Source of the DNA: Malaciobacter pacificus
Lineage (GTDB): Bacteria; Campylobacterota; Campylobacteria; Campylobacterales; Arcobacteraceae
Length of the DNA: 64,000 nt
Reading direction: 5' to 3'
Assembly: GCF_004214795.1 (NCBI RefSeq)
Contig: NZ_CP035928.1
Coordinates: forward strand, 2,356,001 to 2,420,000
Position numbers and translations under genes: made by a program. Shown here piece by piece: positions 32,301 to 57,973 of this stretch. The notes under the pieces are model-generated. The model made no database searches and was not told where the DNA came from. It saw only the letters and a program-made list of their open reading frames with translations. Positions within the stretch are counted from its first letter, which is position 1. Every line of letters starts with the position of its first letter.

Positions 32301-35300
32301 CTGCATCTGTTGTTGTAACTTTTGCATCAATTGTTAAGTCTGGATCTACTGCTAAATCTGCTCCTGGTACATTAATTGAGAATGTTTTATCTGCTGCTAC
32401 AGTTCCTGTAAACTCTTTTCCATTTACTGTTAATGTTACTGTATCACCTTCTTGTACATCTCCACCTACTTTTCCTGTTACTGGAATATTTTGTGTTGAT
32501 TCTGCTGCATTGATAATATCATCTGGTGTAATGTTTTCATCTAATGTGATTGTTGCAGTAATCTCTGTATCTACTGAGTATGTTTCTGTATCTGTTGCAG
32601 TTGCACTATTTCCTGCTGCATCTGTTGTTGTAACTTTTGCATCAATTGTTAAGTCTGGATCTACTGCTAAATCTGCTCCTGGTACATTAATTGAGAATGT
32701 TTTATCTGCTGCTACAGTTCCTGTAAACTCTTTTCCATTTACTGTTAATGTTACTGTATCACCTTCTTGTACATCTCCACCTACTTTTCCTGTTACTGGA
32801 ATATTTTGTGTTGATTCTGCTGCATTGATAATATCATCTGGTGTAATGTTTTCATCTAATGTGATTGTTGCAGTAATCTCTGTATCTACTGAGTATGTTT
32901 CTGTATCTGTTGCAGTTGCACTATTTCCTGCTGCATCTGTTGTTGTAACTTTTGCATCAATTGTTAAGTCTGGATCTACTGCTAAATCTGCTCCTGGTAC
33001 ATTAATTGAGAATGTTTTATCTGCTGCTACAGTTCCTGTAAACTCTTTTCCATTTACTGTTAATGTTACTGTATCACCTTCTTGTACATCTCCACCTACT
33101 TTTCCTGTTACTGGAATATTTTGTGTTGATTCTGCTGCATTGATAATATCATCTGGTGTAATGTTTTCATCTAATGTGATTGTTGCAGTAATCTCTGTAT
33201 CTACTGAGTATGTTTCTGTATCTGTTGCAGTTGCACTATTTCCTGCTGCATCTGTTGTTGTAACTTTTGCATCAATTGTTAAGTCTGGATCTACTGCTAA
33301 ATCTGCTCCTGGTACATTAATTGAGAATGTTTTATCTGCTGCTACAGTTCCTGTAAACTCTTTTCCATTTACTGTTAATGTTACTGTATCACCTTCTTGT
33401 ACATCTCCACCTACTTTTCCTGTTACTGGAATATTTTGTGTTGATTCTGCTGCATTGATAATATCATCTGGTGTAATGTTTTCATCTAATGTGATTGTTG
33501 CAGTAATCTCTGTATCTACTGAGTATGTTTCTGTATCTGTTGCAGTTGCACTATTTCCTGCTGCATCTGTTGTTGTAACTTTTGCATCAATTGTTAAGTC
33601 TGGATCTACTGCTAAATCTGCTCCTGGTACATTAATTGAGAATGTTTTATCTGCTGCTACAGTTCCTGTAAACTCTTTTCCATTTACTGTTAATGTTACT
33701 GTATCACCTTCTTGTACATCTCCACCTACTTTTCCTGTTACTGGAATATTTTGTGTTGATTCTGCTGCATTGATAATATCATCTGGTGTAATGTTTTCAT
33801 CTAATGTGATTGTTGCAGTAATCTCTGTATCTACTGAGTATGTTTCTGTATCTGTTGCAGTTGCACTATTTCCTGCTGCATCTGTTGTTGTAACTTTTGC
33901 ATCAATTGTTAAGTCTGGATCTACTGCTAAATCTGCTCCTGGTACATTAATTGAGAATGTTTTATCTGCTGCTACAGTTCCTGTAAACTCTTTTCCATTT
34001 ACTGTTAATGTTACTGTATCACCTTCTTGTACATCTCCACCTACTTTTCCTGTTACTGGAATATTTTGTGTTGATTCTGCTGCATTGATAATATCATCTG
34101 GTGTAATGTTTTCATCTAATGTGATTGTTGCAGTAATCTCTGTATCTACTGAGTATGTTTCTGTATCTGTTGCAGTTGCACTATTTCCTGCTGCATCTGT
34201 TGTTGTAACTTTTGCATCAATTGTTAAGTCTGGATCTACTGCTAAATCTGCTCCTGGTACATTAATTGAGAATGTTTTATCTGCTGCTACAGTTCCTGTA
34301 AACTCTTTTCCATTTACTGTTAATGTTACTGTATCACCTTCTTGTACATCTCCACCTACTTTTCCTGTTACTGGAATATTTTGTGTTGATTCTGCTGCAT
34401 TGATAATATCATCTGGTGTAATGTTTTCATCTAATGTGATTGTTGCAGTAATCTCTGTATCTACTGAGTATGTTTCTGTATCTGTTGCAGTTGCACTATT
34501 TCCTGCTGCATCTGTTGTTGTAACTTTTGCATCAATTGTTAAGTCTGGATCTACTGCTAAATCTGCTCCTGGTACATTAATTGAGAATGTTTTATCTGCT
34601 GCTACAGTTCCTGTAAACTCTTTTCCATTTACTGTTAATGTTACTGTATCACCTTCTTGTACATCTCCACCTACTTTTCCTGTTACTGGAATATTTTGTG
34701 TTGATTCTGCTGCATTGATAATATCATCTAGTGTAATGTTTTCATCTAATGTGATTGTTGCAGTAATCTCTGTATCTACTGAGTATGTTTCTGTATCTGT
34801 TGCAGTTGCACTATTTCCTGCTGCATCTGTTGTTGTAACTTTTGCATCAATTGTTAAGTCTGGATCTACTGCTAAATCTGCTCCTGGTACATTAATTGAG
34901 AATGTTTTATCTGCTGCTACAGTTCCTGTAAACTCTTTTCCATTTACTGTTAATGTTACTGTATCACCTTCTTGTACATCTCCACCTACTTTTCCTGTTA
35001 CTGGAATATTTTGTGTTGATTCTGCTGCATTGATAATATCATCTGGTGTAATGTTTTCATCTAATGTGATTGTTGCAGTAATCTCTGTATCTACTGAGTA
35101 TGTTTCTGTATCTGTTGCAGTTGCACTATTTCCTGCTGCATCTGTTGTTGTAACTTTTGCATCAATTGTTAAGTCTGGATCTACTGCTAAATCTGCTCCT
35201 GGTACATTAATTGAGAATGTTTTATCTGCTGCTACAGTTCCTGTAAACTCTTTTCCATTTACTGTTAATGTTACTGTATCACCTTCTTGTACATCTCCAC

Positions 35301-38300
35301 CTACTTTTCCTGTTACTGGAATATTTTGTGTTGATTCTGCTGCATTGATAATATCATCTGGTGTAATGTTTTCATCTAATGTGATTGTTGCAGTAATCTC
35401 TGTATCTACTGAGTATGTTTCTGTATCTGTTGCAGTTGCACTATTTCCTGCTGCATCTGTTGTTGTAACTTTTGCATCAATTGTTAAGTCTGGATCTACT
35501 GCTAAATCTGCTCCTGGTACATTAATTGAGAATGTTTTATCTGCTGCTACAGTTCCTGTAAACTCTTTTCCATTTACTGTTAATGTTACTGTATCACCTT
35601 CTTGTACATCTCCACCTACTTTTCCTGTTACTGGAATATTTTGTGTTGATTCTGCTGCATTGATAATATCATCTGGTGTAATGTTTTCATCTAATGTGAT
35701 TGTTGCAGTAATCTCTGTATCTACTGAGTATGTTTCTGTATCTGTTGCAGTTGCACTATTTCCTGCTGCATCTGTTGTTGTAACTTTTGCATCAATTGTT
35801 AAGTCTGGATCTACTGCTAAATCTGCTCCTGGTACATTAATTGAGAATGTTTTATCTGCTGCTACAGTTCCTGTAAACTCTTTTCCATTTACTGTTAATG
35901 TTACTGTATCACCTTCTTGTACATCTCCACCTACTTTTCCTGTTACTGGAATATTTTGTGTTGATTCTGCTGCATTGATAATATCATCTGGTGTAATGTT
36001 TTCATCTAATGTGATTGTTGCAGTAATCTCTGTATCTACTGAGTATGTTTCTGTATCTGTTGCAGTTGCACTATTTCCTGCTGCATCTGTTGTTGTAACT
36101 TTTGCATCAATTGTTAAGTCTGGATCTACTGCTAAATCTGCTCCTGGTACATTAATTGAGAATGTTTTATCTGCTGCTACAGTTCCTGTAAACTCTTTTC
36201 CATTTACTGTTAATGTTACTGTATCACCTTCTTGTACATCTCCACCTACTTTTCCTGTTACTGGAATATTTTGTGTTGATTCTGCTGCATTGATAATATC
36301 ATCTGGTGTAATGTTTTCATCTAATGTGATTGTTGCAGTAATCTCTGTATCTACTGAGTATGTTTCTGTATCTGTTGCAGTTGCACTATTTCCTGCTGCA
36401 TCTGTTGTTGTAACTTTTGCATCAATTGTTAAGTCTGGATCTACTGCTAAATCTGCTCCTGGTACATTAATTGAGAATGTTTTATCTGCTGCTACAGTTC
36501 CTGTAAACTCTTTTCCATTTACTGTTAATGTTACTGTATCACCTTCTTGTACATCTCCACCTACTTTTCCTGTTACTGGAATATTTTGTGTTGATTCTGC
36601 TGCATTGATAATATCATCTGGTGTAATGTTTTCATCTAATGTGATTGTTGCAGTAATCTCTGTATCTACTGAGTATGTTTCTGTATCTGTTGCAGTTGCA
36701 CTATTTCCTGCTGCATCTGTTGTTGTAACTTTTGCATCAATTGTTAAGTCTGGATCTACTGCTAAATCTGCTCCTGGTACATTAATTGAGAATGTTTTAT
36801 CTGCTGCTACAGTTCCTGTAAACTCTTTTCCATTTACTGTTAATGTTACTGTATCACCTTCTTGTACATCTCCACCTACTTTTCCTGTTACTGGAATATT
36901 TTGTGTTGATTCTGCTGCATTGATAATATCATCTGGTGTAATGTTTTCATCTAATGTGATTGTTGCAGTAATCTCTGTATCTACTGAGTATGTTTCTGTA
37001 TCTGTTGCAGTTGCACTATTTCCTGCTGCATCTGTTGTTGTAACTTTTGCATCAATTGTTAAGTCTGGATCTACTGCTAAATCTGCTCCTGGTACATTAA
37101 TTGAGAATGTTTTATCTGCTGCTACAGTTCCTGTAAACTCTTTTCCATTTACTGTTAATGTTACTGTATCACCTTCTTGTACATCTCCACCTACTTTTCC
37201 TGTTACTGGAATATTTTGTGTTGATTCTGCTGCATTGATAATATCATCTGGTGTAATGTTTTCATCTAATGTGATTGTTGCAGTAATCTCTGTATCTACT
37301 GAGTATGTTTCTGTATCTGTTGCAGTTGCACTATTTCCTGCTGCATCTGTTGTTGTAACTTTTGCATCAATTGTTAAGTCTGGATCTACTGCTAAATCTG
37401 CTCCTGGTACATTAATTGAGAATGTTTTATCTGCTGCTACAGTTCCTGTAAACTCTTTTCCATTTACTGTTAATGTTACTGTATCACCTTCTTGTACATC
37501 TCCACCTACTTTTCCTGTTACTGGAATATTTTGTGTTGATTCTGCTGCATTGATAATATCATCTGGTGTAATGTTTTCATCTAATGTGATTGTTGCAGTA
37601 ATCTCTGTATCTACTGAGTATGTTTCTGTATCTGTTGCAGTTGCACTATTTCCTGCTGCATCTGTTGTTGTAACTTTTGCATCAATTGTTAAGTCTGGAT
37701 CTACTGCTAAATCTGCTCCTGGTACATTAATTGAGAATGTTTTATCTGCTGCTACAGTTCCTGTAAACTCTTTTCCATTTACTGTTAATGTTACTGTATC
37801 ACCTTCTTGTACATCTCCACCTACTTTTCCTGTTACTGGAATATTTTGTGTTGATTCTGCTGCATTGATAATATCATCTGGTGTAATGTTTTCATCTAAT
37901 GTGATTGTTGCAGTAATCTCTGTATCTACTGAGTATGTTTCTGTATCTGTTGCAGTTGCACTATTTCCTGCTGCATCTGTTGTTGTAACTTTTGCATCAA
38001 TTGTTAAGTCTGGATCTACTGCTAAATCTGCTCCTGGTACATTAATTGAGAATGTTTTATCTGCTGCTACAGTTCCTGTAAACTCTTTTCCATTTACTGT
38101 TAATGTTACTGTATCACCTTCTTGTACATCTCCACCTACTTTTCCTGTTACTGGAATATTTTGTGTTGATTCTGCTGCATTGATAATATCATCTGGTGTA
38201 ATGTTTTCATCTAATGTGATTGTTGCAGTAATCTCTGTATCTACTGAGTATGTTTCTGTATCTGTTGCAGTTGCACTATTTCCTGCTGCATCTGTTGTTG

Positions 38301-41300
38301 TAACTTTTGCATCAATTGTTAAGTCTGGATCTACTGCTAAATCTGCTCCTGGTACATTAATTGAGAATGTTTTATCTGCTGCTACAGTTCCTGTAAACTC
38401 TTTTCCATTTACTGTTAATGTTACTGTATCACCTTCTTGTACATCTCCACCTACTTTTCCTGTTACTGGAATATTTTGTGTTGATTCTGCTGCATTGATA
38501 ATATCATCTGGTGTAATGTTTTCATCTAATGTGATTGTTGCAGTAATCTCTGTATCTACTGAGTATGTTTCTGTATCTGTTGCAGTTGCACTATTTCCTG
38601 CTGCATCTGTTGTTGTAACTTTTGCATCAATTGTTAAGTCTGGATCTACTGCTAAATCTGCTCCTGGTACATTAATTGAGAATGTTTTATCTGCTGCTAC
38701 AGTTCCTGTAAACTCTTTTCCATTTACTGTTAATGTTACTGTATCACCTTCTTGTACATCTCCACCTACTTTTCCTGTTACTGGAATATTTTGTGTTGAT
38801 TCTGCTGCATTGATAATATCATCTGGTGTAATGTTTTCATCTAATGTGATTGTTGCAGTAATCTCTGTATCTACTGAGTATGTTTCTGTATCTGTTGCAG
38901 TTGCACTATTTCCTGCTGCATCTGTTGTTGTAACTTTTGCATCAATTGTTAAGTCTGGATCTACTGCTAAATCTGCTCCTGGTACATTAATTGAGAATGT
39001 TTTATCTGCTGCTACAGTTCCTGTAAACTCTTTTCCATTTACTGTTAATGTTACTGTATCACCTTCTTGTACATCTCCACCTACTTTTCCTGTTACTGGA
39101 ATATTTTGTGTTGATTCTGCTGCATTGATAATATCATCTGGTGTAATGTTTTCATCTAATGTGATTGTTGCAGTAATCTCTGTATCTACTGAGTATGTTT
39201 CTGTATCTGTTGCAGTTGCACTATTTCCTGCTGCATCTGTTGTTGTAACTTTTGCATCAATTGTTAAGTCTGGATCTACTGCTAAATCTGCTCCTGGTAC
39301 ATTAATTGAGAATGTTTTATCTGCTGCTACAGTTCCTGTAAACTCTTTTCCATTTACTGTTAATGTTACTGTATCACCTTCTTGTACATCTCCACCTACT
39401 TTTCCTGTTACTGGAATATTTTGTGTTGATTCTGCTGCATTGATAATATCATCTGGTGTAATGTTTTCATCTAATGTGATTGTTGCAGTAATCTCTGTAT
39501 CTACTGAGTATGTTTCTGTATCTGTTGCAGTTGCACTATTTCCTGCTGCATCTGTTGTTGTAACTTTTGCATCAATTGTTAAGTCTGGATCTACTGCTAA
39601 ATCTGCTCCTGGTACATTAATTGAGAATGTTTTATCTGCTGCTACAGTTCCTGTAAACTCTTTTCCATTTACTGTTAATGTTACTGTATCACCTTCTTGT
39701 ACATCTCCACCTACTTTTCCTGTTACTGGAATATTTTGTGTTGATTCTGCTGCATTGATAATATCATCTGGTGTAATGTTTTCATCTAATGTGATTGTTG
39801 CAGTAATCTCTGTATCTACTGAGTATGTTTCTGTATCTGTTGCAGTTGCACTATTTCCTGCTGCATCTGTTGTTGTAACTTTTGCATCAATTGTTAAGTC
39901 TGGATCTACTGCTAAATCTGCTCCTGGTACATTAATTGAGAATGTTTTATCTGCTGCTACAGTTCCTGTAAACTCTTTTCCATTTACTGTTAATGTTACT
40001 GTATCACCTTCTTGTACATCTCCACCTACTTTTCCTGTTACTGGAATATTTTGTGTTGATTCTGCTGCATTGATAATATCATCTGGTGTAATGTTTTCAT
40101 CTAATGTGATTGTTGCAGTAATCTCTGTATCTACTGAGTATGTTTCTGTATCTGTTGCAGTTGCACTATTTCCTGCTGCATCTGTTGTTGTAACTTTTGC
40201 ATCAATTGTTAAGTCTGGATCTACTGCTAAATCTGCTCCTGGTACATTAATTGAGAATGTTTTATCTGCTGCTACAGTTCCTGTAAACTCTTTTCCATTT
40301 ACTGTTAATGTTACTGTATCACCTTCTTGTACATCTCCACCTACTTTTCCTGTTACTGGAATATTTTGTGTTGATTCTGCTGCATTGATAATATCATCTG
40401 GTGTAATGTTTTCATCTAATGTGATTGTTGCAGTAATCTCTGTATCTACTGAGTATGTTTCTGTATCTGTTGCAGTTGCACTATTTCCTGCTGCATCTGT
40501 TGTTGTAACTTTTGCATCAATTGTTAAGTCTGGATCTACTGCTAAATCTGCTCCTGGTACATTAATTGAGAATGTTTTATCTGCTGCTACAGTTCCTGTA
40601 AACTCTTTTCCATTTACTGTTAATGTTACTGTATCACCTTCTTGTACATCTCCACCTACTTTTCCTGTTACTGGAATATTTTGTGTTGATTCTGCTGCAT
40701 TGATAATATCATCTGGTGTAATGTTTTCATCTAATGTGATTGTTGCAGTAATCTCTGTATCTACTGAGTATGTTTCTGTATCTGTTGCAGTTGCACTATT
40801 TCCTGCTGCATCTGTTGTTGTAACTTTTGCATCAATTGTTAAGTCTGGATCTACTGCTAAATCTGCTCCTGGTACATTAATTGAGAATGTTTTATCTGCT
40901 GCTACAGTTCCTGTAAACTCTTTTCCATTTACTGTTAATGTTACTGTATCACCTTCTTGTACATCTCCACCTACTTTTCCTGTTACTGGAATATTTTGTG
41001 TTGATTCTGCTGCATTGATAATATCATCTGGTGTAATGTTTTCATCTAATGTGATTGTTGCAGTAATCTCTGTATCTACTGAGTATGTTTCTGTATCTGT
41101 TGCAGTTGCACTATTTCCTGCTGCATCTGTTGTTGTAACTTTTGCATCAATTGTTAAGTCTGGATCTACTGCTAAATCTGCTCCTGGTACATTAATTGAG
41201 AATGTTTTATCTGCTGCTACAGTTCCTGTAAACTCTTTTCCATTTACTGTTAATGTTACTGTATCACCTTCTTGTACATCTCCACCTACTTTTCCTGTTA

Positions 41301-44300
41301 CTGGAATATTTTGTGTTGATTCTGCTGCATTGATAATATCATCTGGTGTAATGTTTTCATCTAATGTGATTGTTGCAGTAATCTCTGTATCTACTGAGTA
41401 TGTTTCTGTATCTGTTGCAGTTGCACTATTTCCTGCTGCATCTGTTGTTGTAACTTTTGCATCAATTGTTAAGTCTGGATCTACTGCTAAATCTGCTCCT
41501 GGTACATTAATTGAGAATGTTTTATCTGCTGCTACAGTTCCTGTAAACTCTTTTCCATTTACTGTTAATGTTACTGTATCACCTTCTTGTACATCTCCAC
41601 CTACTTTTCCTGTTACTGGAATATTTTGTGTTGATTCTGCTGCATTGATAATATCATCTGGTGTAATGTTTTCATCTAATGTGATTGTTGCACTTAAATC
41701 ATCATCTAATAATGCAACTTTTGCTGTATCAACTTCAATTGTAGAATCAGCTCCAACTGTATCTAATAAATTTACAACTAAATCTTCTGTATTTTCAAAT
41801 ACAGTATCATTAATTGTTTCAATGTTTAATAGCACTTCAGTTTGATATGCTGGAATAACTACTGTATATGATACAGGAGCTACATAATCATCTCCATCTA
41901 CATCTCCAGTTATCGTAAATGTTACAGTAATATCTTCATCTGATGGTGTATCAATTTTTACTACAAACTCTGCAGTTGTTCCTTCTGGAATTTCACTTTG
42001 ATTTGTGATAATAGAAACTTTTGGTGCATCTAAAGAATCATTTACTTCAACCGTTGCATCATCTTTAGTTGTATCAATTACAGCATTAGCCCCTGTTGCA
42101 TCTTTTAACTCAACAGTTAAATCTTCTGTTCCTTCATATTTATCATCAACTAAAGTTGCAATATCTAAAGGTACTTCTGTTTGACCTGCTGGAATTACAA
42201 CACTGTATGTTAAGGGAGCAACATAATCATCTCCTGCTACTTCACCACCAATTGTAAATGTTACTGTAATATCTTTATCAGCAGGTGTATCAATTTTGAT
42301 AATAAATTCTGCTTCTTCACCTTCAGTAATTGAAGGATTAACTGCTTCAATTGAAACTTCTGGAGCTGTTTCATCATCTTTGATTGTTCCTACACCTAAT
42401 TCATCTGCAATTTGAGCGTTTACAGGATTAGATAAAATAATATTGAAGTTTTCATCAAACTCATAAATATCATCATTAACTAAATCAATAGTTATAGTCT
42501 TAGATGTCTCACCTGCTAAGAATGTAATCGTACCATTTTGTGCAATATAATCTTTTAAAGCAAACGCTGTATCATCTTGTGTTGTGTAATCAACTGTAAT
42601 ATCAGAAGAAGAAGGATTAGATAAACTTACTTCAAAAGAAATCGTACCTTCATTTTCATATTTAACTGCATCACCTATTATTATTGATGGTATTCCATCA
42701 TCATCTAATATCTCTGCTGTTCCTGTTACTTCTGTATTTGATGTTGTACCTTCTATTACTGTTGCTGTTAATGTAAACTCTTCTGTACTCTCTGATACTG
42801 CATCTTCTTCTGTCTTAATTCTTGCTACTACTTGTGTCTCACCTGCTGGTATTATTGCTTCACTTGCTGCTGTCCATACTCCATTTACTAGTACTTCTAC
42901 TGTTGGATTATAGTCATCACCTTCTGTTGCAGTTCCTGCTGTTGGTGTTAAGCTTACTTTGATATCTTCTTCACTTGCGTTACTTAAGCTTACTACAAAC
43001 TCTGCGTAATCTCCCTCTGTTGTTTGTGTATCTGTTATCTCTATACTTGGTAGGTCATTATCTTTTATTGTACCTACTCCCTCTTCATCTGCTATCTCTG
43101 CATTTACTGCATTACTTAGCAATACGCTAAAGCTCTCATCATCTTCATAGATACTATCATCTAATACTGGTACTGTTATATATTGTACTGTTGTATCTGC
43201 TGGGAATGTTAATTTCCCACTTGTTGTTGTATAGTCACTCCCTGATAATGCTGTTCCATCTACTGTTTCATAATCTACTGTTATCTCACTATCACTTGGG
43301 TTTGTTAAACTTACTTTAAATGTGATTGTTCCATCTTCTTCATTTACTACTGCATCACCTATTATTATTGATGGTATCTCATCATCATCTAATATCTCTG
43401 CTGTTCCTGTTACTTCTGTATTTGATGTTGTACCTTCTATTACTGTTGCTGTTAATGTAAACTCTTCTGTACTCTCTGATACTGCATCTTCTTCTGTCTT
43501 AATTCTTGCTACTACTTGTGTCTCACCTGCTGGTATTATTGCTTCACTTGCTGCTGTCCATACTCCATTTACTAGTACTTCTACTGTTGGATTATAGTCA
43601 TCACCTTCTGTTGCAGTTCCTGCTGTTGGTGTTAAGCTTACTTTGATATCTTCTTCACTTGCGTTACTTAAGCTTACTACAAACTCTGCGTAATCTCCCT
43701 CTGTTGTTTGTGTATCTGTTATCTCTATACTTGGTAGGTCATTATCTTTTATTGTACCTACTCCCTCTTCATCTGCTATCTCTGCATTTACTGCATTACT
43801 TAGCAATACGCTAAAGCTCTCATCATCTTCATAGATACTATCATCTAATACTGGTACTGTTATATATTGTACTGTTGTATCTGCTGGGAATGTTAATTTC
43901 CCACTTGTTGTTGTATAGTCACTCCCTGATAATGCTGTTCCATCTACTGTTTCATAATCTACTGTTATCTCACTATCACTTGGGTTTGTTAAACTTACTT
44001 TAAATGTGATTGTTCCATCTTCTTCATTTACTACTGCATCACCTATTATTATTGATGGTATCTCATCATCATCTAATATCTCTGCTGTTCCTGTTACTTC
44101 TGTATTTGATGTTGTACCTTCTATTACTGTTGCTGTTAATGTAAACTCTTCTGTACTCTCTGATACTGCATCTTCTTCTGTCTTAATTCTTGCTACTACT
44201 TGTGTCTCACCTGCTGGTATTATTGCTTCACTTGCTGCTGTCCATACTCCATTTACTAGTACTTCTACTGTTGGATTATAGTCATCACCTTCTGTTGCAG

Positions 44301-47300
44301 TTCCTGCTGTTGGTGTTAAGCTTACTTTGATATCTTCTTCACTTGCGTTACTTAAGCTTACTACAAACTCTGCGTAATCTCCCTCTGTTGTTTGTGTATC
44401 TGTTATCTCTATACTTGGTAGGTCATTATCTTTTATTGTACCTACTCCCTCTTCATCTGCTATCTCTGCATTTACTGCATTACTTAGCAATACGCTAAAG
44501 CTCTCATCATCTTCATAGATACTATCATCTAATACTGGTACTGTTATATATTGTACTGTTGTATCTGCTGGGAATGTTAATTTCCCACTTGTTGTTGTAT
44601 AGTCACTCCCTGATAATGCTGTTCCATCTACTGTTTCATAATCTACTGTTATCTCACTATCACTTGGGTTTGTTAAACTTACTTTAAATGTGATTGTTCC
44701 ATCTTCTTCATTTACTACTGCATCACCTATTATTATTGATGGTATTCCATCATCATCTATAATCGTAGCTTTACCAGTGGCATTTAGTCCAGTTGGATAT
44801 GTATTATTAGTAGTTGTACCTTCAGTAACTGTAGCTGTAAAAGTATAGTTTTCTGTACTTTCTGATATATTATCTTCTACTGTTGGAATTCTTACTAAAA
44901 TTGCAGTATCACCCGCTTTTATAATACCACTTGTTGCCGGTGACCAAGTAATACCTCCATCAGATGAAACTTCATATGACTCCATTAAATCAGGTCTATA
45001 ATCTTCATTAGCTGTAGCTGTTCCATCTGTTGTTGAAAAATCAAATTTAATATCCTCAGTTGAAGGATTTGAAATCTGAACAGTAAAGATGTTATAGTCT
45101 CCTTCTGTTACAACAGAGTCTGAAATAGATAAGGTAGGAATATCATCATTATTTCCAGAATCATAAATTCTTCCTTCACCTTGAGAATCTGCTATCTCTG
45201 CATTTACTACATTTGAAAGATTTACATACATACTCTCTGGATTTTCATAAATACTATCATCTAATACAGAAATAGAAATTGTTTTAGAAGTTTCACCAGC
45301 TAAAAAAGTAACTGTATTACTATCAGATACATAATCACTTCCTGCTAATGCTGTCCCATCTGCTGTTACATAATCTACTGTTATTGTCTCACTACTTGGG
45401 TTACTTAATGATATTGTGAATGTTAATACTCCATCCTCTTCATTTACTGAAGAATCACTGATTACTATTTGTGGTATCCCATCATTATCTATAATACTTG
45501 CTGTTCCTGTTGAACTTACATTTGTTGTATTATCTGATGTTACATCTACTGTTAATGTAAACTCTTCTACTGGTTCATCTGTATCATCTTGTGTTGTTTT
45601 TACTCTTGCTAGAATCTCTGTCTCACCTGCTGGAACTCTTCCTTCAGTCGCTTCTACCCATGTTACTCCACCATCATATGATACTTCTGTCTCTGGTGCA
45701 TAATCATCTTGTGTTGCACTTCCTTCTGTTGTACTTAATTCAAAAATTACATCTTCTGTTGATGGATTACTTAATTGAATATGGAATACTTCATATTCCC
45801 CTTCTACTGTTTCTGGATTGCTTACACTTATTGATGGTTTATCACTCTCATCATTTATTCTTCCTTCACCTTGAGAATCTGCTATCTCTGCGTTTACTGC
45901 ATTTGAAAGATTTACATACATACTCTCTGGATTTTCATACACATCATCATTTACAACTGGTACTGTAATTATTTTACTTGTCTCTCCTGCTGCGAATGTT
46001 ATTGTCCCATTTACTCCTAAGTAATCCCCATTCTCTAATGCTGTCCCATCTGCTGTTACATAATCTACTGTTATTGTCTCACTACTTGGGTTACTTAATG
46101 ATATTGTGAATGTTAATACTCCATCCTCTTCATTTACTGAAGAATCACTGATTACTATTTGTGGAATTCCATCATTATCTAAAATTGATGCTGTACCTTC
46201 AGTTACTTCATTTGTTGTATTCCCTGATGTTACTGTTGCTTCTAATTTAAACTCTTCTACTGGCTCATCGATATCATCTTGTGTTGTTTTTACTCTTGCA
46301 AGAATCTCTGTCTCACCTGCTGGAATTGTCCCTTCTGTTGCTTCTTCCCAAGTTTGTCCACCATCGTATGATACTTCTACTACTGGAGTATAATCATCTT
46401 CTGTTGCGCTATCTTCTTTTGGTAATAAGTCAAACGTTACATCTTCTTCACTTGGGTTACTTAATTGAATATTGAATACTGCGTATTCTCCTTCAACTAC
46501 TTCTGTATTTGAAACTGTTAATTCTGGTTTATCTGCTTCATCTTGAATTCTTCCTTCACCTTGTTCATCTGCTATTTCTGCATTAACTGGGTTTGAAAGA
46601 TTTACATACATACTCTCTGGATTTTCATACACATCATCATTTACAACTGGTACTGTAATTATTTTACTTGTCTCTCCTGCTGCGAATGTTATTGTCCCAT
46701 TTACTCCTAAGTAATCCCCATTCTCTAATGCTGTCCCATCTGCTGTTACATAATCTACTGTTATTGTCTCACTACTTGGGTTACTTAATGATATTGTGAA
46801 TGTTAATACTCCATCCTCTTCATTTACTGAAGAATCACTGATTACTATTTGTGGAATTCCATCATTATCTAAAATTGATGCTGTACCTTCAGTTACTTCA
46901 TTTGTTGTATTCCCTGATGTTACTGTTGCTTCTAATTTAAACTCTTCTACTGGCTCATCGATATCATCTTGTGTTGTTTTTACTCTTGCAAGAATCTCTG
47001 TCTCACCTGCTGGTATTTTACCTTCAGTTGTCTCTTCCCATGTTACTCCACCATCATATGATACTTCTACTACTGGTACATAATCTTCATCTTCTTTTGC
47101 TGTACCCTCTTTTGGTGTTAAATCAAATATTACATCTTGCGTTGATGGGTTTGACAATTGTATATTAAATACTGCATATCCACCCTCTACTACTTCTGTC
47201 CCACTTACACTTATACTTGGTTTATCACTCTCATCACTGATTCTTCCTTCACCTTGTTCATCTGATATCTCTGCGTTTACTGCATTTGACAAGTTTACAT

Positions 47301-48162
47301 ACATACTCTCTGAGTCTTCATATACATCATCATTTACTACTGGTACACTTATTGTTTTACTTGTCTCTCCTGGTGCAAATGTTATTGTTCCTACTGTCCC
47401 TAAATAATCACTTCCTTCTACTGCTGTCCCATCTGCTGTTGTATAATCTACACTTACTATCTGGCTACTTGGATTTGACAATGATATTGTAAATGTTAAT
47501 ACTCCATCTTCTTCATTTACAGCTGAATCTGAAACTACAATTCCAGGAATTGTAACAGGATCAGTATCACCTGGATCTACTGGAATAGAAGAAATACTTT
47601 CTGTTAAATTAACCCACTGATCTGATGGAGCAATTTCATTTAAATTATCAGAAGTTGAACCAAAAATTGAGTTAAATGTTGAACCATTACCTGTTGCTTC
47701 TCCAGCCTCTGGACCAGCTGCAGCTGCATCTAATGATTCAATTAATGTTTGAAAATTCGTAATTAAAGCTAAATTATCACCTGTACCTGTTTCTACTGGT
47801 CTTGATGCTATAATCTCTAATCTATCAATAATCTCACTTCCACTAAATTGACTATTCTCAATAAGTTCATCAAGATCTTTATCATTAACATTCTTATTTA
47901 TAATTACTGCTGTAGGATTTTCCATATTTGGAGTATTTTCATTTAATAATGGAACAATACCTTTTAATTGAACCTTTACAGTTTTTCCATCAACATTAAA
48001 TACTAATAATATAGTTTGTTGATTATCTTCAAAGTTTAAAATGTAATTTGAAAATCCACTAGAGAAAATATATTGCTCTCCTTTTGATACATCAAACTCT
48101 AAGTCTTTACTTAGTTCTACAACTTTTTTTAGGTTACTTCCAGTTTTAATAGTTAATTTCAT
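23377..48162 (-). CDS. Giant RTX adhesin exported by type I secretion, 8261 residues
   Basis: A surface adhesin of the LapA/ice-adhesin type. Order by residue: 1-120 retention-like module; AAAAG at 146-150, a LapG-type di-alanine site; 207 to about 2150 Calx-beta units; 2157-5516 32 Ig-like repeats of 105 residues; two more Ig-like domains; VCBS-like domain near 5730-5860; DUF4114-like domain ending near 6060 ([10 protein letters not shown]); a repetitive region near 6210-6590 with DGGFVIVW-type motifs; cadherin-like and Calx-beta domains; LamG-like jelly roll near 7050-7280; a carbohydrate-binding-like domain near 7300-7470; RTX nonapeptides near 7530-7940; C-terminal secretion signal after about 8100. 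The folded RTX end should leave the cell first and the retention module stay in the TolC pore. The ATG has a GGAG ribosome site 6 bases upstream. Confidence 0.92.
24333..25560 (-). repeat. RTX block built from a 58-residue super-repeat
   Basis: The calcium-binding region is not a simple run of nonapeptides. Full units are 58 residues and contain AGxxWD near position 6-11, then TGxGxD, LGSGxD and a GxAN spacer with a variable SxATI end. By hand the unit lengths run 58, 58, 40, 58, 58, 58, 41 and a partial last one. The long units have Trp at position 10; the two short units have Phe there and lack about one 18-residue turn. This suggests a beta-solenoid whose super-turns carry an aromatic position. 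Calcium binding is established for the RTX family, while the solenoid periodicity is inferred. Confidence 0.75.
25750..31614 (-). other. Non-repetitive putative ligand-binding block of the adhesin
   Basis: Between the Ig-like array and the RTX block, about residues 5517-7470, the adhesin changes from repeats to distinct domains: two Ig-like domains starting APTVEI and APTVVI, a VCBS-like domain, a DUF4114-like domain ([15 protein letters not shown]), a region of repeated SDGGFVIVW-like motifs that could form a propeller, cadherin-like and Calx-beta domains, a LamG-type domain ([10 protein letters not shown], then FWMKD and LYINGVL) and a jelly-roll domain ending WGIDNIVIT. In related adhesins the domains next to the RTX end contact the ligand (sugars, ice, other cells). 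The target here is unknown. Confidence 0.6.
31615..41694 (-). repeat. 32 tandem 315-bp repeats encoding identical Ig-like domains
   Basis: The same 315-bp unit (105 codons) recurs 32 times in frame over 10,080 bp. The spacing was checked by the position of one landmark sequence: 31881 in the last copy and 41646 in the first, a difference of 31 x 315. The copies read as identical except for the outer edges of the first and last and one base at 34730, which changes CCA to CTA (Pro to Leu) in copy 23 from the N-terminus. Each unit has the SIxVPGADLA and [14 protein letters not shown] motifs of bacterial Ig-like repeats seen in BapA-like proteins and in the Marinomonas ice adhesin, where calcium stiffens the chain. 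Confidence 0.95.
42694..44745 (-). repeat. Three tandem 684-bp repeats (228-residue Calx-beta pairs)
   Basis: Three consecutive copies of a 684-bp unit encode pairs of Calx-beta-like domains, beginning [16 protein letters not shown] and [17 protein letters not shown]. The copies read as identical, and a fourth divergent unit begins at 42693. Codon use here is T/C-rich on the plus strand and differs from the flanking divergent Calx-beta units, which points to a recent local amplification. Confidence 0.85.
44746..47544 (-). repeat. About four degenerate 690-bp Calx-beta repeat units
   Basis: The N-terminal stalk has units of about 230 residues beginning (I/V)[16 protein letters not shown]. Matching landmarks recur at exact 690-bp spacing (45416, 46106, 46796 on the plus strand). 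Unlike the two arrays downstream, these copies have diverged by substitutions, with long identical patches left (for example the [18 protein letters not shown] region in two copies). This suggests older duplication plus partial gene conversion. Confidence 0.75.
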
Positions 48163-48466: not shown

Positions 48467-50032
48467 TTATCTCTCATGAAGTGAGTCTTGTTTTACTTTA
48501 AGTATAGGTTTTAAAATAAAATCTAAAATTGTTTTCTTTCCTGTTACAATATCAACTGATGCCACCATTCCAGGAATAATAGGAAGCTTTCTACCATCTT
48601 TTTCTAAATAGTTTTTATTTGTTTTTACTAAAACTCTATAATAACTTCTTCCTTCTTTAGACTCTTTATCTATAATACTATCTGCAGAAATATCAATAAT
48701 CTTACCCTCAAGTCCCCCATAAATAGAGAAATCATAAGCTGTAATTTTTATAATTGCTTTTTGACTTGGATTAATAAAAGCAATATCTCGAGGATCAATT
48801 TTTGCTTCTACAACTAAAGCATCACTTAATGGAACTATTTCAATTAAATCAACACCTGATTGAACAACTCCACCAATTGTATTAAAGTTCAATTGCTTAA
48901 TAATACCATCAACTGGTGAAACTATAGTTGTTTTTGCAACTTTATCTTGATCACCTACTAATTTAGCTTCAAATCTATTAATTTGACTAACTGTTTTTTG
49001 TAGTTCATTTGAAGCTTCAGATCTAAATGTATTTATCTTTTCATTAATCCTACTTTCAGATTCATTAATTGCATATCTTGATCTTGATATAGATAATCTA
49101 GCAGTATCTAAATCACCTTTGGTTTGAGTATACTCTTTTTCAATATCCAATAAATCATATTTTGACTTAACACCTCTAGCAACAAGTTTTTTTATAGTTT
49201 TTCTTTGCTCTTCTATATATCCTAAACTATCACTTAATTTTGAAATTGTACTTTGAATTTCTCTTAATTCTTGTCTTTTTTGATTTCTTTGACTTGTTAA
49301 AACTCTTATTGAAGATTGAAGCTCTCTAAACCTGTTTTCAAAAAGTGTTTTTTCAGTAATATCATATCTTGAGCTGTCATCTAAAACTTTTTTATCAAAC
49401 TCAAGTTTAGGTAAAGGATCATCTATATTGATATTTGCTTCAACTTCTAATCTTGCTTTTACTGCTAAAAGAGCTAAGTATTCTTGTTTACTCTCTTCCA
49501 AACTTGCTTGAAATCTTGTAGTGTCAATTTTCATTAAAGGATTATCTCTTTTTACAGTATCTCCTTCTTTTACAAAAATCTCTGAAATTATACCTCCATC
49601 TAAAGATTGTACAGTTTGAATTTTATCAGTAGGAACTACTTTACCATCACCCCTAGCTAACTCATCAATTTCGGCAATTGCAGCCCATGCTAGTAAAGAG
49701 ATAAAAACAAAAATAATAATAAGAAAAATAGTATTAGATACTCTTCCTGGCTCCTCATTTGAAGTTGCATAGCTTGAGTAAATAAAATTTAAATCTTCTT
49801 TTTCATCCTCTTCTAAGCCATAAAGTCTTTTAACCCAATTAATAAAACCTGTTTTTTCTTTTTTTTCTAATTTGGGTTCTTCAAAACTTGTTTCTATTGA
49901 TTTATTTAATTTCTCTTGTTGTGATTTTTCTTCATTGTTTAAATTACTTTTTATTGTTGGTTCTACTATTGTAAGATGTTCATTATTTTCTAAACTAAGA
50001 ATATCATCTAAATTATCATATTTTTTGTCCAT
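48467..50032 (-). CDS. HlyD/LapC-type periplasmic adaptor of the type I secretion system
   Basis: A 521-residue membrane fusion protein that links the inner-membrane ABC exporter to the TolC-like channel. One membrane helix lies at about 101-120 (IFLIIIFVFISLLAWAAIA). A lipoyl/barrel-sandwich half precedes and another follows a long coiled-coil hairpin (about 195-370). The barrel part near the C-terminus contains the HlyD signature region VSPVDGIIKQL. The cytoplasmic N-terminus of about 100 residues is long and highly acidic/basic compared with most HlyD proteins. It lies 3 bases after the exporter gene. Confidence 0.88.
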   Translation of the reverse strand: MDKKYDNLDDILSLENNEHLTIVEPTIKSNLNNEEKSQQEKLNKSIETSFEEPKLEKKEKTGFINWVKRLYGLEEDEKEDLNFIYSSYATSNEEPGRVSNTIFLIIIFVFISLLAWAAIAEIDELARGDGKVVPTDKIQTVQSLDGGIISEIFVKEGDTVKRDNPLMKIDTTRFQASLEESKQEYLALLAVKARLEVEANINIDDPLPKLEFDKKVLDDSSRYDITEKTLFENRFRELQSSIRVLTSQRNQKRQELREIQSTISKLSDSLGYIEEQRKTIKKLVARGVKSKYDLLDIEKEYTQTKGDLDTARLSISRSRYAINESESRINEKINTFRSEASNELQKTVSQINRFEAKLVGDQDKVAKTTIVSPVDGIIKQLNFNTIGGVVQSGVDLIEIVPLSDALVVEAKIDPRDIAFINPSQKAIIKITAYDFSIYGGLEGKIIDISADSIIDKESKEGRSYYRVLVKTNKNYLEKDGRKLPIIPGMVASVDIVTGKKTILDFILKPILKVKQDSLHER

Positions 50033-50035
50033 TCT

Positions 50036-52195
50036 TTAACCTACTTTTGCGGTGAAAACTTCTTCTTTTGGTCCATCAACAACAATTTTACCATTTTCTA
50101 CAATAATAATTCTATCAACTAATTGAAGTAATGATGTTTTATGTGTCACTACAATTAATGTTTTATCAGCAACTATATTTTGCAATCTATTAATAAATGC
50201 TTTCTCTGTTTGTCTATCCATTGAATTTGTTGGTTCATCAAGCATAATTATATTTGGATCTGAAATCAAAGCTCTTGCTAAAGTAACAGATTGTCTCTCA
50301 CCTCCACTTAATCCTTCACCTCTTTCACCTACTAGTAAATCATATCCTGCTTCATGCTTACCTAAAAATTCATCAAGTCCTGCAATTTTAGAAACTCTTA
50401 AAATCTCTTCATCTGAAACATATTGTTCTCCAATAGTTAAATTATCTTTAATTGTACCCATAAATAAAAATGGTTCTTGAGGAACAGATCCAATAGCATG
50501 CCTTAAATCTGTTGGATCAATTTGTCTAGTATCTAAATTATCAATTAAAACAGAACCTTTTGTAGGTTCATATAAATTATTAATCAATTTTAATAAAGTT
50601 GATTTACCAGAACCTATCTTTCCTAAAATAGCTACTTTCTCACCTTTTTTAATCTTTAAATTTATATTCTTAAGTGTTTGATGGTTTTGGTCTTTGTAAG
50701 AAAACTCAACATCTTTTAACTCTATATCTCCTGATAGATTTGGTCTACTAATGTATGTTTTATTCTCTTTTTCTACTGGCATTTTCATAATTTCATCTAA
50801 ATTATTTAAAGACAACATTGTCCTATCAAATCGAATAATCATTCCTACTATTTGAGAAATTGGAGCAATAACCCTACCGTTCAAAATCATAGCAGCAATT
50901 ATAGCACCCATTGTAATGTCTCCATCTTGCGCTAAATAAACTCCACCAACAACAATCGCTATATTAGAAAATTGAGATATAAAAGCAGTTGTATAAGTAA
51001 TTGATTGCGATAAAAAATGTCCTTTATCAGCATAATGTACAGTTTTATTTACAGATTGATCCCAATGAGTTTTCATTCTATTTTGTGCTTTCACACTTTT
51101 TATAATTTCTAACCCTGCAACTGCTTCAATTAAAGTAGTTTGTTTAATCTGCTCTTCTTTTACTGATTTTTCAATAATAGTTTTTAAAGGTCTTTGTAAA
51201 TACCAAGATAAAATAATTGATATAAGAACAGTTGCAATAGTAATTAAAGCAAGAGGTCCAGCAATATAATATATAACTAATATAAATATTATAACAAAAG
51301 GGAAATCCACTAAAGCTGCAATTGTTGCACTAGTAAAAAATTCTCTAACATTCTCAAAAGATTGTAATCTACTAACAAATTGACCTGTTGAAGCAGGCTT
51401 AGCATCAAGTTTTATATTTAATAAATGATTAAATATCTTATTTGAAATAATAGTATCAGCTCTTTTACTAGCTATTCCTAAAAAGTGAGCTCGAATAACC
51501 TTTAATAATAAGTCAAAAAACATTACTAAAGCAATCCCTATAAATAGTGCCCAAAGTGTTTCAATAGCATTATTAGGTAAAACCCTATCATAAACATTCA
51601 TAGTAAATAAAGGTGTTGCTAAAATAAATAAATTAATAAATAAAGATACTATAATTACTTGTTTATAAATTCCTTTATTTCTAAAAAGTGTTCCCCAAAA
51701 CCATTCTTTAGGATTTTCTACTTTTACTTCTTTTTCAATTCTATTATTGAAATTATATTCAGGCTTTATAATTATAACTTCACCTGTATACTCTGATTCT
51801 AATTTTTCAATGGGCATCTGAGTTTCGCCAGCAATTAATCCAGGTAAAATAACACTTGCTATTCCAGTTTCTAAATCATAATCAAGAAGAACACAAGCTC
51901 TATTCTTATTTAAAATCAATACTGAAGGTAAGGCTAGTTTTGTTATATCCTTTATGTTTGTACGTTTAACTGTTTTTGTTTTTAAACCTATTCTTGAAGC
52001 AGCTTGATGAAACATTGAAATATTCATAGAAGATTTATGAATAGGTAATCCAAAAGTTAAGGATTCTGCTGAAGTTTCTCTATTGTGGTACTTAGATAAA
52101 AAAAGTAGACAACCTAAAAGGTCATCTACTTTTCTTCTGTCTTTAAGGTTTGTTAGTGTTTCATTTTCAATTGTATTTGAATGACTCTTTTCCAA
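50036..52195 (-). CDS. Type I secretion ABC exporter with degenerate C39-like domain (LapB type)
   Basis: The 719-residue protein is a fused permease-ATPase. The N-terminal 130 residues resemble a C39 peptidase domain, but the catalytic Cys position falls on an Asp four residues before the Cys in DDLLGCLLFL. It is therefore a substrate-docking C39-like domain, usual for giant RTX substrates. Six helices follow, then an ATPase with Walker A GKIGSGKST (near 522), signature LSGGERQS and Walker B IIMLDEPTNS. The start is TTG. It sits between the TolC and adaptor genes of the same operon. Confidence 0.9.
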   Translation of the reverse strand: MEKSHSNTIENETLTNLKDRRKVDDLLGCLLFLSKYHNRETSAESLTFGLPIHKSSMNISMFHQAASRIGLKTKTVKRTNIKDITKLALPSVLILNKNRACVLLDYDLETGIASVILPGLIAGETQMPIEKLESEYTGEVIIIKPEYNFNNRIEKEVKVENPKEWFWGTLFRNKGIYKQVIIVSLFINLFILATPLFTMNVYDRVLPNNAIETLWALFIGIALVMFFDLLLKVIRAHFLGIASKRADTIISNKIFNHLLNIKLDAKPASTGQFVSRLQSFENVREFFTSATIAALVDFPFVIIFILVIYYIAGPLALITIATVLISIILSWYLQRPLKTIIEKSVKEEQIKQTTLIEAVAGLEIIKSVKAQNRMKTHWDQSVNKTVHYADKGHFLSQSITYTTAFISQFSNIAIVVGGVYLAQDGDITMGAIIAAMILNGRVIAPISQIVGMIIRFDRTMLSLNNLDEIMKMPVEKENKTYISRPNLSGDIELKDVEFSYKDQNHQTLKNINLKIKKGEKVAILGKIGSGKSTLLKLINNLYEPTKGSVLIDNLDTRQIDPTDLRHAIGSVPQEPFLFMGTIKDNLTIGEQYVSDEEILRVSKIAGLDEFLGKHEAGYDLLVGERGEGLSGGERQSVTLARALISDPNIIMLDEPTNSMDRQTEKAFINRLQNIVADKTLIVVTHKTSLLQLVDRIIIVENGKIVVDGPKEEVFTAKVG

Positions 52196-52222
52196 GAAAT
52201 CCCTTTTTTATATTAGTAAATC

Positions 52223-54055
52223 CTAGTGATATTTTGCATATAATTTTTTATGTTTACTAACATTATCAATATATGGTTTATGAGCTAATACTGAAGCTGG
52301 TAAAGACTTCATAGCTTCTTTTGCTTCTTTAACAGAAGAGAATATACCATAAATAACCTTTGCACTTTTCATTCCAGGTCCAAATTCATATCTAAATGAG
52401 TTATTATCATCTAATCCATTATTTATTACAAATTGATTAGCTGCTGATAAACCTTTAGTAGTTGTAATATTTAATGTATAACTCTTTTCTGGTGCATCTA
52501 AAAATGATGTGTAAGAAACTACACTTGATGAATCTACAAAGCTTTCAGAAGCTTGAATATCTTGTGTTTCAACAACTTGAGATTCAACTGTATCTTCTAC
52601 TTTTTCTTCAACTGTTTCATCCCCTAGTAATGCACTTAACTCATCTGATACAGCAGCTGTTTTTACAGGTTTTGATTCTACCACTTCTTCATTAGTTATA
52701 TTACTTGCAACAGTAGTTGTTGTATTAATCTCATTTGAACAAGATTGAGTTTCTGATGTTAAAATTGTATCACTTAACATAGAGAAACTATTTAAAATCT
52801 CATAGTAATTAGAGTATAGTTCGTATTCTCTATTTAATAAACTTTTTTTCGCTTCATATAAAACTGTTTGAGCATCTAAAATATCTACAAATGTTCTAGT
52901 TCCAGCTTCGAATTCACTCTTATAAACTTGTACAATATTTTCATTTGCTACAACATAATCTTTTAAAACATTAATTCTATCTTTGTTCTTGTTATATCTT
53001 TGGTAATTAACTTTTACCGATTCAACAATTTTATTTGTAATAGCATCTAGTCTTTCTTTTTGTTCAGCTAAGAATAATTCTTCTTGCTGTGAAACTGCAT
53101 GGTCTCCACCACCATTATATAAATTCCATGCTAAGTTAATTCTACCAAAAGCTTGATCTTCCTTACCATTTTCATCTAATGATAAATCATTATCAGTTAA
53201 AGCTTTTAATTCTAAACTAAGGTTTGGTAAAAATTTAGCATCTGCTTGAGCTATTTTTTCTCTTTGTGCTTTCACTCTTTCAATTTGTTCTAAAATTTCA
53301 CTATTTCTAAGAACTGCTAACTCTACTGCTTCTTGTAAAGAAGAAGGAATTTTACTTTCATCTATAAAAGGTCTACACTCTTTTCCATCTGGTTCTACAC
53401 CAACATATCTTTTAAAAGTACTAATTCTAGAGCTTTGTAAATCTTTTTCTTCTAAGTATTTCTCTTTTACAAAACTTAATTTTGATTCAACTTGATAAGT
53501 TTCTAAAACCTCTCCACTAATAGCCTCTTTTTCTCTTGCTATTAGAAGATTATCTTGGTTAGTTTCAATCATGTCTCTTGTTAGTTGTAGCATTTCTTTA
53601 TATTGGATAAGTCCTGTGTAAGCACTAACTGTATCAGATACTACATTCTCGATATTTAGTGTTGTTCTGTATTTATTAGCTAAATCATTATGTTTTGCTT
53701 CTCTAACTTGACTTGGTGTTAAGTCTCCATCATAAAGCATTTGATTTAAAGCAATTCCAAAATTATATCCATCTTCTTGAACAGAACCATCAGTTAATGT
53801 TCCATTTCTATTATCATCATAATCTCTTTCAATACTACTTTGTTCTATTCTTCCATCAATATCAATTCTAGGAAGGTAGTTTGCTTCCCGTTCATCAATA
53901 TATTTCCTAAACGCTTGCTGATTATTTTTTTCAGCAATTATTTCAGGATTTGTAGCCATAACTTTTTCAACACTATCTTTTAGGCTCAATGCATGTAAAG
54001 ATGAACTAAGAAGTAAAGAAACACAGGCATATTTAAGTATTCTTTTAACTAACAT
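52223..54055 (-). CDS. TolC-family outer-membrane channel fused to a C-terminal SPOR domain
   Basis: The 610-residue protein has a signal peptide of about 23 residues, then two TolC repeats (about 25-430) with typical helices such as AVELAVLRNSEILEQIERVKAQ. An acidic, disordered linker of about 90 residues follows (rich in Val, Glu and Thr). Residues 525-610 match the SPOR fold of DamX: YTLNITTT at the first strand, then AKVIYGIFSSVKEAKEAM and LPASVLAHKPYI. SPOR domains bind peptidoglycan lacking stem peptides, often at the division site. TolC C-termini face the periplasm, so the SPOR domain could touch the wall there. It is the first gene of the exporter operon. Confidence 0.85.
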   Translation of the reverse strand: MLVKRILKYACVSLLLSSSLHALSLKDSVEKVMATNPEIIAEKNNQQAFRKYIDEREANYLPRIDIDGRIEQSSIERDYDDNRNGTLTDGSVQEDGYNFGIALNQMLYDGDLTPSQVREAKHNDLANKYRTTLNIENVVSDTVSAYTGLIQYKEMLQLTRDMIETNQDNLLIAREKEAISGEVLETYQVESKLSFVKEKYLEEKDLQSSRISTFKRYVGVEPDGKECRPFIDESKIPSSLQEAVELAVLRNSEILEQIERVKAQREKIAQADAKFLPNLSLELKALTDNDLSLDENGKEDQAFGRINLAWNLYNGGGDHAVSQQEELFLAEQKERLDAITNKIVESVKVNYQRYNKNKDRINVLKDYVVANENIVQVYKSEFEAGTRTFVDILDAQTVLYEAKKSLLNREYELYSNYYEILNSFSMLSDTILTSETQSCSNEINTTTTVASNITNEEVVESKPVKTAAVSDELSALLGDETVEEKVEDTVESQVVETQDIQASESFVDSSSVVSYTSFLDAPEKSYTLNITTTKGLSAANQFVINNGLDDNNSFRYEFGPGMKSAKVIYGIFSSVKEAKEAMKSLPASVLAHKPYIDNVSKHKKLYAKYH

Positions 54056-54250
54056 ATTTTTCTCCTAATTTTTTGAAACATAATTTGGAATAATTTTTTG
54101 AGTTACTTTACTTAGATTTTACTTAATATTTGCTTTTCATAAATATTTATTAGATTTTTATGTGTAAAAACATATTTACTGTTATAACATTGCTTAGTTT
54201 AATCTATATTTTATTATTATATCCTTTATTATTATTTTTTAAGAGTCTAA
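54056..54250. promoter_or_regulatory. Divergent promoter region between secretion operon and response regulator
   Basis: The 195-bp gap is extremely AT-rich. It must hold promoters for the minus-strand exporter operon and the plus-strand response regulator. Candidate -10 boxes are many and none stands out. A weak TATGT/ACATA inverted repeat near 54161-54175 is the only symmetric element I saw. Confidence 0.4.
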
Positions 54251-54955
54251 ATGAATGAAAATACTAAATTAAGCAATATTTTAAAAAATTTATCAATACT
54301 ATATGTGGAAGATGAAGAAAATATTAGAGTAAATGTAAAAAAAGTTTTGGAATTATTTTGTAATGTCATTTATGATGTGGATAATGTAGAAGAAGCTAAG
54401 CAAATACTAGAAAAAGAAAAAATAGATATAATTATCTCTGATATTAATCTTCCTACTTTAAGTGGTATAGATTTCATTAAAGAGTTAAGAAAAATAGATA
54501 AAACAATACCTGTTATATTACTAAGTGCGTATACTGATAAAAAATATTTATTAGAAGCAACAAAATTAAAACTAGTAGATTATTTAACAAAACCAATTGA
54601 TTTTAACACTTTAAAAAATTCTTTATTAAAATGTGTTCAAGATATAATTGACAATTCAAGATATATGATAGATTTCAATAATGGTATTGAGTATAATGTT
54701 TCAAAAAAAATATTATCAAGTAAAGAAACAAAAGAGATCATTACTCTAACTTCAAAAGAACTAATGCTTTTAGATTTTTTAATAAAAAATAGTTATAGAG
54801 TTGTTTCACATGAAGAGTTAAAACTAAATCTTTGGGATGATGAATTTGAAGCTACAGACTCAGCACTAAAAAATCTAATGAATAAACTAAGAAAAAAAAT
54901 AGGTAAAGAAACCATAATCAATATTTCAGGGGTAGGTTTTAGACTAGAATATTAA
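54251..54955 (+). CDS. OmpR-type response regulator upstream of the secretion operon
   Basis: The 234-residue protein has a receiver domain with the acidic pair YVEDEEN, phospho-acceptor Asp in IISDINLPTLSG, LLSAY and the conserved Lys in TKPID. A winged-helix effector ends in NISGVGFRLEY. It is divergent from the TolC-exporter-adaptor operon, a classic position for a local regulator. The nearest unpaired kinase is the soluble one at 22526, on the far side of the adhesin. It resembles the regulator at 12521. Confidence 0.85.
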   Translation: MNENTKLSNILKNLSILYVEDEENIRVNVKKVLELFCNVIYDVDNVEEAKQILEKEKIDIIISDINLPTLSGIDFIKELRKIDKTIPVILLSAYTDKKYLLEATKLKLVDYLTKPIDFNTLKNSLLKCVQDIIDNSRYMIDFNNGIEYNVSKKILSSKETKEIITLTSKELMLLDFLIKNSYRVVSHEELKLNLWDDEFEATDSALKNLMNKLRKKIGKETIINISGVGFRLEY

Positions 54956-55462
54956 TTAATAATTGAGCCGCTTGCAAATTCCACCATCATAAACTAGTGA
55001 ATTTGTAAACCTACTAAGCTTATCAAGCAGATCTTTTAAACTTTTAATCATTTTACCGCTTTATGGGTCAATTTTAGATAAAAAACTATTATTGGGTGCG
55101 TGCTTGATGGTTGAGTTTTAAAAATGGCTAATTTTTAGTGTTTTTAGCTAAAAGTTATGTTACCAGTTTCAAACTCTGATGAATACAAACTGATAAAATA
55201 CCAAATGCTAAAACAGAAGCTACTTTTGTAGCTCCTTTATAATAAATATTACTGCATCCAAAGTCTTCTTTGAGGTATTTATTGACTCTCTCAACCATAC
55301 TTCTTTGATTATAGTGATGGGTATCTAAACTTTGAGTAAGGTTTAGAATTTTAAATTTCTTTTTTTCATCTTTTATAAGTTGAATTTTTTCTTTTAACTC
55401 TTTGGAGTTCTTCGGATTGATATTGGAGTGGTAACTTAAAATAAGACACTTTTTTTATAATT

Positions 55463-56293: not shown

Positions 56294-56340
56294 TTTATTG
56301 ATATTGAAACTCTTTGTATGTTTTTGTATCCAGGCATACT

Positions 56341-56637
56341 TTATAGAGTTTCTTTTGCGAAGTATGCTGTTGCTTTTTTTAATATATCCCTTTCTTGCTT
56401 TAAAATCTTATTCTCTTTACGTAAGCGTTTAAGCTCTTCAGCTTCACTCTCTTTGAGTGTACTTTTTATTTCAATATTCCTCATTGGAATATTATGTTCT
56501 TTTTTATATGCAGTAACCCATGCATATAATGTTTTTGGATTTAAATCTAAATCTTTTGCTATATCTTTTACATTTTCATTATTGTTAATAATTAATTGTA
56601 CTGTTGAGTCTTTAAACTCTTGACTATATTTTCTCAT
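56341..56637 (-). CDS. IS3-family OrfA (helix-turn-helix and leucine zipper)
   Basis: The 98-residue protein has an N-terminal HTH (VKDIAKDLDLNPKTLYAWV) and a C-terminal coiled coil (EELKRLRKENKILKQERDIL) for multimerisation. The codons TTA AAA AAA GCA near the end contain the slippery A7 run (56374-56380) for the shift into OrfB. Confidence 0.9.
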   Translation of the reverse strand: MRKYSQEFKDSTVQLIINNNENVKDIAKDLDLNPKTLYAWVTAYKKEHNIPMRNIEIKSTLKESEAEELKRLRKENKILKQERDILKKATAYFAKETL

Positions 56638-57955: not shown

Positions 57956-57973
57956 TTAAAAAAGGAAACTACT

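Follow-up and report, generated by a model that had tools for sequence, protein, structure and literature searches.

Genomic organization of the TolC-SPOR locus

The window, which is the whole 64,000-nucleotide stretch of Malaciobacter pacificus DNA analyzed here, carries genes for a TolC-SPOR protein, an ABC transporter, a HlyD-family adaptor, and a giant adhesin in this order on the same strand, with successive gaps of 27, 3, and 304 bp. The features of the locus are as follows.

52223..54055 (-): ORF of the 610-aa TolC-SPOR fusion (OEP, PF02321; SPOR identified from profile and fold)
53990..54055 (-): probable signal peptide, residues 1–22 (hydrophobic N-terminus ending in SLHA, followed by L; read by eye)
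52751..53992 (-): OEP/TolC channel body, residues ~22–435 (PF02321 match and full-length model)
52499..52750 (-): acidic disordered linker, residues ~436–519 (full-length model, composition, dN/dS)
52226..52498 (-): DamX-type SPOR domain, residues ~520–610 (profile, alignment, AlphaFold2 model, Foldseek)
52469..52471 (-): Asn529, where SPOR domains canonically have the glycan-contact Gln (DamX Q351, RlpA Q270; alignments)
50036..52195 (-): type I secretion system (T1SS) ABC transporter, LssB type (TIGR03375, 5.5e-267, above cut-off)
48467..50032 (-): HlyD-family periplasmic adaptor (TIGR01843, 1.1e-117, above cut-off)
23377..48162 (-): 8261-aa LapA-type adhesin (Calx-beta, LapA-domain, LamG-like, and RTX Ca-binding C-terminus)
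47713..47724 (-): AAAG, adhesin residues 147–150, predicted LapG cleavage site in the N-terminal retention module (sequence and relatives)
54251..54955 (+): divergent OmpR-type response regulator, conserved beside TolC in relatives

The description of a type I secretion operon with an adhesin, given in the earlier note, could be upheld by the TIGR03375 and TIGR01843 matches and the 8261-aa adhesin. The LssB/LapB-type ABC transporter and HlyD adaptor that mark a LapA-type T1SS were both present. The retention-module motif [TAP]AAG was found as AAAG at residue 147, and AAAG, TAAG, or SAAG occurred at residues 142–154 in 14 of 15 adjacent adhesins, the neighboring TolC tail being SPOR, LysM, OmpA_C, or none. 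Three LapG matches, and LapD at two loci, were detected above cut-off in the same genome outside the window operon. These sequences place the operon among LapA-type type I systems, and cleavage of its adhesin by LapG is predicted. An Rfam scan of 48000–58200 returned no match.

A kinase follows the response regulator at loci L058–L060, and that of L060 contains SBP_bac_3 and HisKA/HATPase parts and is EvgS-like. IS3 and IS5/IS1182-like transposases occupy the place of this usual kinase neighbor in the window (54251–58105), and the best same-genome matches to that kinase shared only 37–39% identity over the sensor and kinase parts.

Domain architecture and identity of the C-terminal tail

Pfam analysis of the 610-aa protein revealed OEP (PF02321) at E=3.5e-35, with 122 bits against a cut-off of 22, and both OEP repeats of the channel body scored above cut-off, as in TolC/OEP outer membrane factors; TIGR01844 scored 191 bits, under its cut-off of 225. 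The channel body is followed by a linker with 17 acidic and 3 basic residues among the 80 of 436–515, and residues 440–512 were disordered in the full-length model. The ordinary TolC body, the acidic linker, and the C-terminal SPOR that had been read from the sequence were thus all recovered, the domain being placed here at residues ~520–610 compared to 525–610 previously.

The full-length single sequence gave no Pfam match to SPOR at E≤0.1, and the SPOR part alone scored 15.6 bits against PF05036 (cut-off 21). The NCBIfam DamX model matched residues 447–597 under its cut-off (E=1.7e-4). Six of eight homologous C-terminal tails reached E≤1 against the SPOR model, the best of them 1.2e-5, some homologues passed the Pfam SPOR cut-off, and so did a same-genome paralogue (L035 9422–11665) consisting of TolC and two SPORs (1.1e-11). 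When the profile of the eight homologous C-termini was searched against the PDB, the best match was the SPOR domain of E. coli DamX (2LFV) at E=2.1e-10, followed by a runner-up at E=0.19. The profile search of the last ~90 residues, which had been suggested as a check, was therefore borderline and negative with the single sequence and positive with the family profile. The single-sequence Pfam score was dropped as the deciding test, since it is borderline where family profile and fold are clear.

The AlphaFold2 model of the last 106 residues had a pLDDT of 91.5, and Foldseek placed 2LFV first (E=5.7e-5, probability 1.0), the DedD SPOR second, and the CwlC SPOR further down, so that 2LFV was recovered both by profile and by fold. 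Chance similarity of a low-complexity tail could be ruled out by the model and the Foldseek result. The C-terminal tail is confirmed as a DamX-type SPOR domain.

Glycan-contact residues and selection

A conserved Gln (RlpA Q270, DamX Q351) is a canonical glycan-contact residue of SPOR domains (PMC6895207). This Gln was replaced by Asn in every tail of the SPOR-tail alignment A4, including Asn529 of the window, and the position of DamX W416 was occupied by Tyr595. Proteins with several SPOR copies usually kept Asn at the glycan-contact position in at least one copy, the other copies being variable, and two non-TolC SPOR proteins of the same genome (L001, L002) retained Gln. The two replacements may alter the affinity of the domain for the wall.

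Pairwise dN/dS values, which are rough because dS was high in several pairs, were 0.06–0.17 for the channel, 0.09–0.49 for SPOR, and 0.13–1.5 for the linker, with the exception of the L007/L009 SPOR pair (0.69 at low dS). In most pairs the SPOR value was below that of its own linker. In most pairs, these ratios point to purifying selection that is stronger on SPOR than on the linker, which is much less conserved.

TolC-linked SPOR subfamily in Campylobacterota

A search with the SPOR alignment over 397 Campylobacterota genomes returned 54 ORFs at E≤1e-10, the threshold taken as strong, and 49 of them were TolC ORFs with one to five SPORs. Among the five remaining strong matches were four-SPOR proteins and one SPOR protein whose gene neighbors a LapD-like gene. 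Three proteins of ~614–638 aa (L210 9102–10943, L211 9533–11446, and L212 9004–10905) carried four TolC-type SPORs each, and no T1SS gene was found within the ~20 kb read around them. One TolC in a T1SS operon (L228 5526–7223) had a SPOR-like domain N-terminal to the channel (residues 24–122), which was found by the alignment A4 profile and not reported by Pfam.

At five loci (L215, L216, L218, L226, and L238), a TolC with 3–5 SPORs was directly followed by a LapD-like gene of the GGDEF-EAL type, and the operons also contained ABC and HlyD genes. Three other TolC-SPOR operons encoded a separate OmpA_C protein after HlyD (L222 1963–3300, L223 1988–3319, and L227 10882–12207), which carries ankyrin repeats in L227. 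A published account of TolC-SPOR, TolC-OmpA, or Arcobacter SPOR proteins was not found in the open-access literature searched, which misses most subscription journals; such architectures are very probably listed in domain databases.

Survey of TolC tails and phylogeny of the channel body

A total of 142 distinct TolC-body ORFs were gathered from two sources, the first by whole-protein match and the second irrespective of tail. Aliarcobacter and Arcobacter were the closest relatives with a name, which puts the host near Arcobacteraceae. Their tails were classified as SPOR (23), OmpA_C (24), LysM (1), and NTF2-like Cds6_C (26), the rest being short or unclassified, and 32 T1SS/Lap-linked TolCs were short and without a tail. 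All 23 SPOR-TolCs of the survey adjoined a T1SS ABC gene. The DAP-binding Asp was often missing from the OmpA-type modules, which counts against the tether proposed below.

A tree of 84 rows was built from the channel bodies only, with the tails trimmed. The SPOR label required 10 changes on this tree, at least eight of which were forced by starred branches. Two members of the window's TolC clade, both nested with starred support, bore other tails, namely LysM in L011 (Pfam 2.6e-14) and OmpA_C in L065 (Pfam OmpA 1.5e-7), and each lay beside the same set of genes, for ABC, HlyD, the response regulator, and an adhesin with the retention site. In Arcobacter caeni and a relative (L059, L060), TolC stops before SPOR, and beyond the stop in L060 the remains of a decayed SPOR could be read (48% over 31 aa, E=7e-7). 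The ABC gene was intact at both loci, and HlyD and a 1681-aa adhesin were intact in L060. Read from the tree and these sequences, SPOR was replaced in the window's clade once by LysM and once by OmpA_C, and was lost once with a decayed remnant. The tether proposed below is not essential, since the tail-less A. caeni lineage keeps its ABC, HlyD, and adhesin and many T1SS/Lap-linked TolCs have no tail.

The anticipated co-occurrence of TolC-SPOR with giant adhesins was confirmed within the window's clade. Adhesins measured 2811–8290 aa in SPOR-bearing operons, 6269 aa in the LysM operon, and 1681 aa in the SPOR-less A. caeni lineage. Adhesin length as a predictor of the tail was suggestive only, as there was one independent loss, and was set aside; L074, a more distant locus with SPOR-TolC, is adjoined by a 1299-aa adhesin-like ORF.

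Betaproteobacterial Lap-linked TolCs (L072–L133) often had a C-terminal NTF2-like Cds6_C (the 26 cases above, those inspected being betaproteobacterial) and sometimes OmpA_C. The Cds6_C tail is possibly comparable to YbjP, a partner of E. coli TolC. At L069 (9932–11575), the SPOR core was deleted and the final YIDNIDKYQKLYFKNN tail retained, which may reflect a C-terminal helix with a role of its own or an assembly error.

Proposed function of the SPOR tail

LapA-type adhesins hold cells to surfaces via a plug within an outer-membrane pore. The SPOR tail is proposed to tether this adhesin-holding pore to peptidoglycan, where it would bind the wall and bear load; this reading as a whole is given a probability of roughly 0.6. 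The adhesin would be exported through the TolC-SPOR pore and remain in it, its N-terminal retention module plugging the pore until LapG cuts the adhesin. The pore is presumed to be trimeric, so that three SPORs per pore, and up to fifteen in relatives, could act together on flexible linkers to hold it to the wall. A pulling force on the adhesin would then be passed via the pore to the sacculus, and the pore would be kept near the wall-spanning exporter.

The tail might instead place the pore at septa, SPOR recruiting it to glycan that amidases have denuded during division and the adhesin thereby being displayed at the septum and later at the poles. The window SPOR is of the DamX septal type, the same genome has an Amidase_3 that could make denuded glycan, and all SPOR proteins known by 2019 serve division or morphogenesis (PMC6895207). 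However, the highly conserved Gln is Asn in the TolC tails of alignment A4, whereas L001 and L002, which carry SPOR without being TolCs, retain it. Within one orthologous operon, SPOR is moreover exchanged for LysM or OmpA_C, which are general wall binders; among the three folds, only SPOR is known for septal glycan. Anchoring is preferred over septal targeting because these three folds interchange in one orthologous system and their common property is wall binding; the N-terminal SPOR of L228 also counts toward anchoring. Septal placement is accordingly regarded as unlikely. The earlier note had offered pore anchoring or septal/polar placement; the former gained support from the LysM/OmpA_C exchange and the N-terminal SPOR, and nothing specific was found in favor of the latter.

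Still less likely is an aid to assembly, by which the tail would help the trimer to find, or to keep, a wall gap during assembly of the tripartite exporter, or would recruit a wall-remodeling partner, with no part in holding the adhesin. TolC channels have to work across the wall, and the betaproteobacterial relatives bear Cds6_C, which is not a known wall binder. Apart from the SPOR paralogues, however, the OEPs of the same genome are mostly 404–464 aa with no SPOR seen, and therefore channel assembly in general needs no SPOR. For efflux pumps, YbjP, a lipoprotein partner of E. coli TolC, was termed a missing link (PMC13082787, PMC13016604), which suits the assembly reading. That tails were repeatedly gained and lost on the body-only tree, with a decayed SPOR in the A. 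caeni relatives, would suit a little-used decoration of small benefit, but this is very improbable given the purifying selection on SPOR relative to the linker in most pairs, the increase in SPOR copy number, and the repeated re-invention of wall-binding folds as the tail.

Extended beyond the window, the tether reading would make Campylobacterota adhesin pores a load-bearing link that connects the adhesin outside the cell, across the outer membrane, with the wall, made by repeated fusion of an available wall-binding module (SPOR, LysM, or OmpA_C) and including a TolC-dedicated SPOR subfamily with up to five copies per subunit; the chances of this wider proposal are about even. It would add a SPOR subfamily outside cell division and bears on how a pore holding a LapA-type adhesin withstands pulling. 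Close relatives offer natural comparisons, as the presumed wall tether was exchanged or multiplied in some of them and was lost once.

Comparison with known systems

The window operon shares with Pseudomonas LapA/LapBCE an LssB/LapB-type ABC transporter, a HlyD protein, a TolC-like pore, and a giant RTX adhesin with an N-terminal retention module and a LapG-type site, and LapG and LapD are present in the window genome too. The Pseudomonas adhesin stays anchored in a TolC-like pore until the LapG cut (PMC6890996). The TolC-like subunit of the window differs in its C-terminal SPOR, and no mention of a wall-binding part of LapE was found in the Lap literature consulted. TolC/OEP outer membrane factors have the same channel body with two OEP repeats, and the window protein differs from them by about 175 additional residues with a folded SPOR module at their end. 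In E. coli, TolC-YbjP likewise has an accessory periplasmic part on TolC, but YbjP is a lipoprotein in its own right whose binding to peptidoglycan is reportedly not avid (PMC13082787), whereas the window SPOR is fused to TolC. The DamX SPOR (2LFV) resembles the window tail in fold and sequence profile, and the window domain differs from it in having Asn for Gln and, opposite Trp416 in the alignment, Tyr. DamX is an inner-membrane division protein, whereas the SPOR domain of the window is attached to an outer-membrane channel.
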